Positions 39,822 through 42,872 of a stretch of DNA of 64,000 nucleotides are shown one piece after another (position 1 is the stretch's first letter; every line of letters begins with the position of its first letter). The stretch comes from Halorussus vallis (GTDB lineage Archaea > Halobacteriota > Halobacteria > Halobacteriales > Haladaptataceae): NCBI RefSeq assembly GCF_024138165.1, contig NZ_CP100000.1, positions 3,038,001 through 3,102,000 on the forward strand, given 5' to 3'. Both the position numbers and the translations under genes were made by a program. The notes beneath the pieces are model-generated. The model was not told the origin of the DNA, searched no databases, and saw nothing but the letters and a program-made list of their open reading frames with translations.

Positions 39822-40193
39822 TCACTCGCCGTCCGTCCACGTCTCGACGGCGTCGGCCACGTCGAACAGTTTCGACCGCGCGTCCGCGTCGATGCTGACG
39901 AAAACGCCGTCGTGGCCGTCGAACGGGACCTGCACCGCGAACGCGTCTTCGGTTTCGTAGACGATTCGACGGAGCGGCCCGGCGCTCGTCACGTCCTCGA
40001 CCTTCTCCCGCCCGAGCGCGAGCACGATTATCTCTCGCCGGAGCGTATCGAGGTCGGCTGGCTCGTAGCGGTCGGCGAGTTCGTCGCGGAGGTAGAGGTG
40101 GTCGAAGTCGTGCTCGGAGTAGACGCCCACCATGCGGAGGTCGTCGCCGACCGACGTTCGCAGCGTCTCGGTCAGTTCGCTCGGGTCGACCAT
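39822..40193 (-). CDS. haloarchaeal conserved small protein
   Basis: A 123-residue acidic protein, no named function. Conserved-looking parts are LRMVGVYSEHDFDHLYLRDELADRY and the C-terminal VQVPFDGHDGVFVSIDADAR. It resembles a family of haloarchaeal proteins seen as single genes across the class. It is convergent with the CPBP gene. Possibly a sensor or ligand-binding domain, but this is a guess. Confidence 0.7.
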   Translation of the reverse strand: MVDPSELTETLRTSVGDDLRMVGVYSEHDFDHLYLRDELADRYEPADLDTLRREIIVLALGREKVEDVTSAGPLRRIVYETEDAFAVQVPFDGHDGVFVSIDADARSKLFDVADAVETWTDGE

Positions 40194-40370: not shown

Positions 40371-40961
40371 TTACTTCGCGCGACCCTGGCCGCCGTTGTT
40401 GCTCGGTCGGACGTGTTCGGCGCCCGTGCCCCTGTTGCGGAGGCCGCGGTTGTCCTTGCCCGCGCCCGTCAGTCCGCGGAACGCGCGACCCTGGTGGGCG
40501 TCGTCGCAGATCCAGTTGAGGTCGTCGTCGTTCTGGATGGCGGGGTGCTCGGGGTCGAGCAGAATCACTTCGAACCACTTCTGGCTACCGTCCTCGCCGA
40601 CCCAGTAGGAGTTGAGCACGCGCAGGTTGCGGAACTTCCGGCTGACGCGCTCCTCGGCGATGCGCTGGACGTTCTTGCGCCGGTAGACGCGGTTGACGCC
40701 GGTCCGCTTCGAGCGCCGGCCGGCCTTGAACCGCTGCTTGCGGGCCGAGCCCTTGCGGACGCTCGCGCGGGCCACGACGACGCCCTGCTTGGCCTTGTAG
40801 CCGAGTTCGCGGGCCTTGTCGAGGCGGGTCGGTCGCTCGATGCGCTCGATGGCGCCCTGCTTGCGCCACTCTTGCTTTCGCTGCCACTGAAGTTCGGCGA
40901 GGTCGCCGTCCTTCGGGTTCTTCCACGCGTCCTTGATGTGGGAATAGAAGCTTTTTGCCAT
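40371..40961 (-). CDS. rpl15e: large-subunit ribosomal protein L15e
   Basis: A 196-residue archaeal/eukaryotic ribosomal protein. It starts AKSFYSHIKDAWKNP, with the basic RNA-binding body KGSARKQRFKAGRRSKRTGVNRVYRR, the segment LRVLNSYWVGEDGSQKWFEVILLDP and the Gly/Arg-rich tail (KDNRGLRNRGTG). Full length. The start ATG is at 40959-40961. A TATA element about 195 bp upstream and the hairpins between make a long structured 5' leader, unusual in this mostly leaderless genome. Confidence 0.97.
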   Translation of the reverse strand: MAKSFYSHIKDAWKNPKDGDLAELQWQRKQEWRKQGAIERIERPTRLDKARELGYKAKQGVVVARASVRKGSARKQRFKAGRRSKRTGVNRVYRRKNVQRIAEERVSRKFRNLRVLNSYWVGEDGSQKWFEVILLDPEHPAIQNDDDLNWICDDAHQGRAFRGLTGAGKDNRGLRNRGTGAEHVRPSNNGGQGRAK

Positions 40962-40989
40962 GGTGTATCACCACGGGCGTTGGGTGGTT

Positions 40990-41130
40990 CAGCCTGCCTC
41001 CGCGGGTGACCCCGCGACGTTTCGAGGCGCGAAGCACCTCACAGGCCACATTCCGTCCTGCGGCCCCGGGGGCGGTCGTCGACCGCTCCCGGGGCGCGCA
41101 GGTGCCCGCTGGTGCCCGTTCGCCAGCGAG
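40990..41130 (-). ncRNA. structured leader or small RNA upstream of rpl15e
   Basis: On the minus strand, starting about 25 bp after the palindromic TATA-like CCCTTAAAGG (41153-41162), several helices can be drawn. One is a hairpin around CTGGCGAACGGGCACCAG (near 41110-41127). Another has 14-bp arms with one mismatch (41064-41094, CCCCGGGAGCGGTC). A three-way junction closes with GCCTG/CAGGC (40992-41046), with hairpins at 41024-41040 and 41001-41016. No ORF fits. It could be a regulatory 5'UTR of rpl15e or a separate stable RNA. Confidence 0.4.
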
Positions 41131-41152
41131 TTACCCGAATTTCTCGTCGTTC

Positions 41153-41162
41153 GCCTTTAAGG
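41153..41162 (-). promoter_or_regulatory. TATA-like element before the rpl15e leader
   Basis: CCCTTAAAGG on the minus strand, about 195 bp upstream of rpl15e. Predicted transcription start near 41130. Confidence 0.4.
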
Positions 41163-41473
41163 GCTTCGTCTTCGGTCCGTCCTCGATTCGGCCATCGCGT
41201 CGCGACCGTGTTCCCGTCGGCCGTCGCCGCTCGATTCTACGACCGTCGCCGAACCGTCCTCACCGCTCTCTGCGTCTTCGTCGTCTGCCTCGGCGCGCTC
41301 TCGCGATGGGGACCGATACCCGGCGTGAAACGGTCTGCAACGGTCCGCTCGCGCGTTCCGCGGAACCGGCCGGAAAACGTAACCGTCGGCGGCGAAACTA
41401 AGGTCACGTTATTCCAGCGCGGGGTCCGTTACCCCCCGAATAGTAAAGAATCGGGACGCCGTGTATCTGAACT

Positions 41474-41549: not shown

Positions 41550-41702
41550 ATGGCGATCCTCGAACTCGCCATCGCGTTCTTCGTCCTCGCCATCATCGCG
41601 GGCGCGCTCGGGGCCGGTGGCGTCGCCGGCCTGTCGATGGACATCGCCAAGTGGCTGGTGATCGCGTTCCTGGTGCTCGCGGTGGTTTCACTCGTGCTGT
41701 GA
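41550..41702 (+). CDS. UPF0391/DUF1328 small membrane protein
   Basis: A 50-residue protein with two hydrophobic helices. It shows the DUF1328 pattern ([24 protein letters not shown], then [19 protein letters not shown]). The family is common in bacteria and haloarchaea and linked to stress in some bacteria. The frame is open upstream, but the short family length starts at the ATG 41550. Its end overlaps the convergent rio2 gene by 15 bp. Confidence 0.85.
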
Positions 41703-42605
41703 GTGCTCGCGGACGGTCGTGAACGACCCGTCCGCGAGCGCGGCCGCCAGTGACGCGCAGTCCGGGTCGTCCGGAACCAGCCGCGGGTACTTCCGCCGGA
41801 AGTAGCTCACCACGTTTTCGACGTCGCGTTCGAGTAACTCCTCGCTATTTTCGTGGTCGGTCGGCACCGCCTGGGGCCAGTCGAAGATGGTGATGCCTTC
41901 GCTGTTGACGAAGACGTTGTACTCGCTCATGTCGGCGTGGACGAAGCCTGCCTCGTAGGCGTCGCCCATCTCCGAGAGGATCAGGTCGAGGACGCCGACG
42001 ACCTGCCCCTCTTCGAGCCTGGTCCGCGAGAGTTCGACGCCGTCTATCTTCTCCATCACGATGGCGTGGCGGTTGTGGTCGACCGGCCGGGGCACCCGGA
42101 CGTCGGGGTACAGCGTCTCCAGGGCGTCGTACTCGCGCTCGGCGGCCTTCCGGGCGGTGTAGAGCCACGAGACGTGCTCGCGGTCGGAGGTGTAGTCGCG
42201 TTCGCGCATGACCTCACGGAAGTTGGTGTAACCCTCGCGGTGGTACTTCAGCGCCAGCGGCTTGTACGACTGGACCTCGTAGACGTCGCTCTCCTTGCCG
42301 ACGCCCAGCGGCGCGCCGAACCCCTCCAGGGTGCCCCGCTCGGCGAAGGTGTGGAGCGCCAGCGCGTCGTAGCCCTCGAACTTCAGCTGGTAGCCCTCGT
42401 ACTGGATGGTGTTGCGCTCGATCAGTTCGCGGTCGAGACACCGGTCGATGCGGTAGTCGACCTCCTCGGCGGTCAGCCGCGAGAACTCCGGAATCTTCTC
42501 GCGGGCGACCCACTCGCTGAAGCGCATCCCCTGCTCGACGCCCGAGAGGAGGTGGAAATCCTCGGGCTCCAGCTCGGCCAGCAGGCCCGCGACGTTCTGA
42601 ACCAT
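41688..42605 (-). CDS. rio2: RIO-type serine/threonine protein kinase Rio2
   Basis: A 305-residue Rio2. The N-terminal winged helix ([20 protein letters not shown], then [15 protein letters not shown]) is followed by the RIO kinase domain. This has the nucleotide loop [11 protein letters not shown], lysine in [16 protein letters not shown], hinge [13 protein letters not shown], catalytic loop [13 protein letters not shown] and metal-binding IFDWPQAV. In archaea and eukaryotes Rio2 acts in small-subunit maturation. The ATG at 42605 is preceded by a TATA-like CTTTTAC 28 bp upstream, implying a leaderless mRNA. Confidence 0.95.
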
Positions 42606-42629
42606 CGCGTGGCCGTAGTCGGCCCGCGG

Positions 42630-42636
42630 GTAAAAG
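42630..42636 (-). promoter_or_regulatory. TATA-like box of rio2
   Basis: CTTTTAC on the minus strand, 28 bp upstream of the rio2 ATG. Confidence 0.5.
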
Positions 42637-42872
42637 CCCCGCGTCACGTCCGACCGCGGCTCTCGGTCACCTCCGAGCGCTTCGAACCGGACGGCCGAGC
42701 GTCGTCGGTGACCCGTCCGCCACCCCGATAAATCAAATGACGATATACGAAAACGCACATTGACAGGTCAGCGGACGACGACGAGAGCCGGCGAACGAGC
42801 GACGAGTTCGCCTGTAACTCGACTCGTCGCGGGGTTACGGCGCAATCTCGTCCGGCTCAACAATCGAAACGG

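Follow-up and report, generated by a model that had tools for sequence, protein, structure and literature searches.

A divergent predicted eL15 leader with a covarying H1-loop pseudoknot near the start codon of haloarchaeal rpl15e

The rpl15e gene of Halorussus vallis appears to be separated from its promoter by about 170 nt of structured RNA, and the question that this locus raises is what such an RNA would be. The window (the whole stretch of DNA that was analysed, 64,000 nucleotides of contig NZ_CP100000.1) had been given a first-pass annotation, in which two possibilities were named: an autoregulatory ribosomal protein leader, or an independent small RNA, for example a guide RNA, sharing the promoter. 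The gene is on the minus strand with its ATG at 40961, and the closest named L15e relatives are in Halorussus species, with 86-88% identity (best 80 of 577 loci). Near rpl15e, also on the minus strand, there is a gene for a RIO-type kinase with a Rio2 N-terminal domain (41688-42758; Pfam RIO1, 1.3e-50, and Rio2_N, 3e-30), and just downstream of rpl15e, on the same strand, one for a small protein of unknown function (39822-40193; Pfam DUF7522, E = 2e-9). A short hydrophobic ORF is present on the plus strand (41551-41702), and we take its product to resemble small membrane proteins such as those of DUF1328.

The minus strand of the leader region had a minimum free energy of -100.4 kcal/mol, whereas 200 shuffles averaged -80.4 (z = -4.47) and none of them reached the observed value. 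The plus strand folded nearly equally well (z = -4.38); therefore, the strand is not decidable from folding energy alone. The elements named beforehand were recovered in the predicted fold (Table 1): the very stable hairpin at 41064-41094 corresponds to P1, the three-way junction at 40992-41046 to P2 with its two tip hairpins, and the further hairpin to H1. The annotated stretch had extended to 41162, and here a distinction is needed, because its outer end does hold a TATA-like box but would be promoter and not RNA, with transcription starting at about 41132.

Table 1. Features of the rpl15e locus in the window (all on the minus strand) and the evidence for each.
Feature	Position	Evidence or remark
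rpl15e, ribosomal protein eL15, 196 aa	40371-40961	Pfam Ribosomal_L15e, E = 4.6e-80
TATA-like box CTTAAAGG	41161-41154	Sequence; A/T peak upstream of H1 in 184 leaders
H1, 5′ hairpin, stem CGCUGG (41128-41123) / CCAGCG (41112-41107)	41107-41128	Fold and compensatory changes
Pseudoknot 5′ strand (copy 1), ACGGGC, in H1 loop	41114-41119	Covariation
Copy 2, GCGGGC, in the H1-P1 interval; may also pair with the GCCCGU strand	41104-41109	No double changes at its 6 pairs; one compensated pair, by eye, in L163
P1 (first RF03144 helix), a very stable hairpin	41057-41102	Fold and RF03144 alignment
P2, whose tip carries two hairpins	41054-40986	Fold
Core 5′ strand GGAAUGUGGCC (RF03144), putative eL15-binding internal loop	41044-41054	RF03144 alignment, P2 double changes
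P2 two-hairpin tip (three-way junction)	40995-41043	Fold; cmscan, 43 nt compared to 3 model positions
Core 3′ strand GGCUGAACC (RF03144)	40986-40994	RF03144 alignment
Pseudoknot 3′ strand, GCCCGU, 11 nt upstream of the ATG	40973-40978	Covariation, fixed gap
GGUGAU, Shine-Dalgarno-like	40967-40972	Directly 3′ of the pseudoknot strand

The position of the transcription start was approached by aligning haloarchaeal rpl15e upstream regions on H1. In 184 of 185 distinct leaders (one was omitted because its upstream sequence was missing), it was found that an A/T peak (81-99% A/T) lies 25-28 nt upstream of the first base of H1 and that a second peak (96%) lies at -10 from this base. Because these peaks are at a fixed distance from H1, the start was placed at about 41132, so that H1 would stand at the 5′ end of the RNA and the leader would run from about 41132 down to 40962. 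That the promoter directly precedes H1 in haloarchaea is shown by comparison of these predicted leaders. The lengths of the 185 leaders ranged from 93 to 269 nt. The leader of Halorussus litoreus (L060/L044) contains a long C run and an N stretch inside P1, and its length (269 nt) is uncertain for that reason.

We then compared the locus with known RNA families. A scan of the whole window with Rfam found no family at its cut-off, RF03144 (the eL15-Euryarchaeota leader) included. A permissive scan of 601 bases (40800-41400) placed RF03144 at 41086-40981 on the minus strand with 24.9 bits (E = 0.024), which is below the gathering cut-off of 33.7 bits, a detection threshold and not a biological trait. 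The alignment covered the full model (1-48) and retained the conserved core letters, and the low score is probably due to an insert of 43 nt in place of 3 loop positions and to the long P1. The core ACGGgAUGUGGCC ... GGCUGAACC is present in the window's leader as an internal loop between two helices, a P1 hairpin stands immediately 5′ of this core, the element is located upstream of rpl15e as the family expects, and helix covariation was found in P2 (P1 was not counted). The difference from RF03144 is that P1 and P2 are much longer, P1 being far longer than that of the model, whereas P1 itself, the P2 core and the place upstream of rpl15e are the same. The window's leader is a divergent copy of the predicted RF03144 leader, a membership that we argue from the orthologous place and a series of intermediates within the genus rather than from the score.

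The RF03144 model (48 positions) spans only the middle of the element: it starts at P1, ends just past the core, and lacks the H1 hairpin and the pseudoknot strands of the haloarchaeal element. At E<=0.001 it matched 237 of the 292 class genomes, 207 of these above the cut-off. In the phylum it matched 133 of 294 genomes (127 above the cut-off), and it found the Methanosarcina control genome. Fifteen of the 55 class genomes without a match were inspected, and in 13 of these both H1 and the pseudoknot were identified by script. In another, the element was read by eye in a changed form (leader L163, genome G045), and a divergent haloarchaeal genome (L174, G021) had no recognisable eL15 leader within 230 nt upstream of rpl15e. 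H1 and the pseudoknot were also present in the window's genome and in four model misses of the same genus (G024, G162, G176 and G274).

The comparison was based on rpl15e upstream regions from 137 loci (the best 80 of 577 by protein identity, the 30 best Rfam scores and 27 of the window's family), later extended to 213 by the 15 model-missed genomes and by loci of three further groups (8, 30 and 27, a few of them repeats); the sample is uneven across groups. In the first round 136 of 137 loci were parsed, and the one that failed (L028) was parsed later. In total, 205 were parsed, giving 185 distinct leaders. Four of the unparsed entries (L003, L004, L223 and L224, two genomes occurring twice) failed because the pattern was too strict, and by eye they have a GCGGGC:GCCCGC pseudoknot. 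A very long leader (L196) yielded the core and the 3′ strand only, L232 is at a contig end with the upstream sequence missing, and L163 and L174 are also outside the parsed set.

It was found that the haloarchaeal consensus 5′ of P1 in almost all loci is a CGCUGG-loop-CCAGCG hairpin (H1) followed by GGCACC. A G[C/U]CCG strand lies 3′ of the core near the AUG, and its complement, NCGG[G/A]C, lies in the H1 loop. These two strands can pair in all of the 185 distinct parsed leaders, with all 6 pairs in 162, 5 pairs in 19 and 4 pairs in 4 (pair 1 is absent in 16 leaders and pair 6 in 11). Despite the variation in leader length, the 3′ strand of this pseudoknot ends 7-13 nt before the AUG in every one of the 185.

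This placement bears on the proposal that the rpl15e promoter also serves a separate small RNA or guide RNA, which we regard as very improbable. The presence of a long structured RNA before the gene would fit such an RNA, and nothing else was found in its favour: no guide family reached its Rfam cut-off in the window, none was among the 5 permissive matches in 40800-41400, the conserved 3′ strand is tied to the AUG, and the core is that of a predicted ribosomal protein leader.

The evolution of the pairs was evaluated by Fitch parsimony, using a quick tree built from rpl15e coding sequences and rooted at its midpoint; in the null, changes in the 3′ column are decoupled from those in the 5′ column. 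Strands for the pseudoknot counts were anchored by motif because a MAFFT alignment of 32 leaders shifted the H1 loop, which is variable in length. Anchoring on GG[G/A] fixes pairs 3 and 4 and restricts pairs 2, 5 and 6; pair 1 is free of this possible bias. Pair 1 was A-U in 72 and G-C in 93 of the 185 leaders, with 5 double changes that kept the pair, and pair 5 was G-C in 163 and A-U in 21, paired in all 185, with 3 double changes. The maxima in 200 null simulations were 3 and 2, respectively, and no simulation reached the observed values; in an earlier test, with 126 leaders, the double changes numbered 6 and 3, which none of 300 simulations reached. Judged solely by how many leaders are paired, pair 1 stayed within the tree null (80 of 300 simulations). 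Within the H1 stem, the double changes at pair 1 (2), pair 3 (8) and pair 4 (3) were all beyond the null, and the 2 at pair 5 were not. The P2 pairs had 4, 11, 17 and 11 double changes, counts to be read with two limits: 3 of the 185 leaders lack a core match, and the outer pairs b and c, paired in 155 and 77 of 182 leaders, are in the remainder unpaired or anchored wrongly.

Taken together, the predicted helices, the pseudoknot and its fixed place at the start codon are shown by comparison of leader sequences, and our confidence in the rpl15e leader and its pseudoknot is high. The first-pass annotation had named a lack of compensatory changes as one refutation, and such changes did occur in H1, P2 and the pseudoknot; together with the RF03144 match and the constant distance to the start codon, they favour the predicted autoregulatory leader of its two proposals.

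The conserved pseudoknot adjoining the start codon suggests a way to switch translation off. We consider it probable that the RNA acts in cis as the rpl15e mRNA leader and belongs, in divergent form, to the predicted eL15 family, with the order H1-P1-P2 core and the H1 loop paired near the AUG, and that excess eL15 would close it and thereby lower eL15 synthesis. That eL15 is the ligand, and the direction and the regulation itself, we infer, and in a translational block by eL15 our confidence is moderate. In this model, eL15 in excess of what newly made 23S rRNA takes up would bind the internal loop of P2 (ACGGRAUGU / UGAACC) and clamp the leader closed by stabilising the closing helix. The pseudoknot helix beside the AUG would then stop or trap the small subunit, and less eL15 would be made. 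With eL15 drawn off by rRNA, the helix would open and the rpl15e mRNA would be translated. A Shine-Dalgarno-like GGTGA(T) stands 3′ of the pseudoknot strand in 106 of the 185 leaders, and 71 of the 185 have no Shine-Dalgarno-like motif. In Haloferax volcanii, Shine-Dalgarno pairing is reported as unused at 5′ UTRs in the text available of PMC3986360, and together with the 71 leaders this makes a steric block or trapping likelier than hiding of a Shine-Dalgarno sequence. Weighing against the closure model are the divergent genome that has no such leader (L174), the score of the window's RF03144 match below the cut-off, the leaders in which pair 1 or pair 6 is absent, the anchoring of the H1 loop by motif, the ability of copy 2 to pair the same 3′ strand, and a scan of 23S rRNA for the core that gave no convincing match.

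Outside evidence on the control of rpl15e comes from Halobacterium salinarum, in which, at low salt, the rpl15e mRNA more than doubled and the protein fell below a third; the 5′ portion of the transcript carries a SmAP1 site, ribosome footprints form a peak and there is a processing site, and the authors propose a salt-dependent fold (available text of PMC9786353). The mismatch between mRNA and protein points to post-transcriptional control of rpl15e and to no particular mechanism. All of these observations would agree with a salt- or chaperone-sensitive leader, in which ionic strength or SmAP1 rather than eL15 sets the fold and translation. We think this unlikely: the core also occurs in further families of the phylum, methanogens to judge from their gene and family pattern, and in the loci read it precedes rpl15e, which fits eL15 as the ligand better, and the mechanism is untouched by the tests described in the available text of PMC9786353.

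Another rival reading comes from the second copy of the 5′ strand. The start-proximal strand may pair with copy 1, giving the pseudoknot with H1 intact, or with copy 2, giving a nested helix beside P1 that breaks into H1, with eL15 choosing between the two states. Copy 2 overlaps the H1 stem, and its GGGC is invariant in 185 of 185 parsed leaders although the 3′ strand varies, but the parsing pattern itself required G[A/G]C in copy 2, and there were no double changes at its 6 pairs in the 185 leaders. For the same lack of double changes at 6 pairs, we do not prefer an extended nested helix in which copy 2 would provide the principal closure. The copy-2 nested helix was retained as a rival because of L163, in which GCGAGC in copy 2 and GCUCGC in the 3′ strand form a compensated pair where copy 1 offers only G.U; this is a single case, read by eye. 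L163 is the only leader in which copy 2 and the start-proximal strand have changed together, and seven relatives in its genus retain GGGC/GCCC.

The 40 rpl15e loci from other families of the phylum (two sets of 20, strands read by eye) are, in our reading, methanogens, from their relation to Methanosarcina. In 31 of the 40 leaders, GUUUC stands before P1 and there is no H1. In each of these 31, GAAAC or GGAAC occurs 0-14 nt upstream of the start codon, and 29 have a second strand of the GAAAC/GGAAC type just 3′ of P2, so that GUUUC is able to pair with either. The start-proximal pairing was better than most shuffles in 13 of 16 leaders tested (<=20 of 500 reached it), and in the other three (L140, L141 and L157) a quarter or more of the shuffles paired equally well. 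In 9 of the 40 leaders, the strand pair was not found, and in some of these the core runs straight into AGGUG. The two lineages thus seem to share a closing helix extending to the start codon, with different strands doubled. On this basis, the haloarchaeal and methanogen eL15 leaders might be two-state switches on a duplicated closing strand, doubled on the 5′ side in haloarchaea and mirrored in methanogens (one 5′ strand, two 3′ strands), in which eL15 binding sets the pairing and access to the AUG. The methanogen strands are nearly invariant, and this, with the three leaders that fared no better than shuffles, argues against it; we regard the two-state switch as a tentative possibility, with low to moderate confidence.

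RF03144 was predicted by Eckert and Weinberg in 2020 (PMC7247131), whose available text lists rpl15e as the regulated gene, grades the covariation evidence as good, leaves rRNA mimicry unclear, and also predicts eL15 binding and feedback repression by the leader. Three covarying pairs were added to RF03144 in Rfam 15 (available text of PMC11701678). These two papers were the only literature on the eL15 leader that we found; the available texts of PMC4983044, PMC8303175 and PMC10134880 hold nothing specific on it. Neither main text gives a start-codon mechanism, no demonstration of autoregulation was found in the literature, and the word 'pseudoknot' is absent from the main text of PMC7247131, although its supplementary files may draw one. 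To look for rRNA mimicry, the 23S rRNA of the window's genome (L001) was scanned for a similar internal loop; there were 5 weak candidates, all with other loops, and the 6-mer AUGUGG occurs in it once, about equal to our estimate of chance expectation. What is known is the predicted RF03144 leader family, and what is new is the pseudoknot architecture.

To our knowledge, the cis-regulatory RNAs described from archaea are few. With its covariation and its constant spacing from the start codon, the pseudoknot provides a concrete, testable model, and the rpl15e leader would offer a link to the mRNA/protein mismatch in H. salinarum. The archaeal S15 leaders of Halobacteria and Methanomicrobia are likewise among the predicted ribosomal protein leaders in the available text of PMC7247131; they belong to a different gene, and the likeness is one of description. 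The rpsO (S15) leaders of E. coli and mycobacteria, as presented in the available text of PMC8470358, respond to another protein and have an unrelated structure, and repression by S15 was tested whereas that by eL15 is inferred. The rpsO leaders resemble the haloarchaeal rpl15e leader in being ribosomal protein leaders with a pseudoknot at the ribosome-binding region, and they alternate between a fold with two hairpins and one with a pseudoknot.
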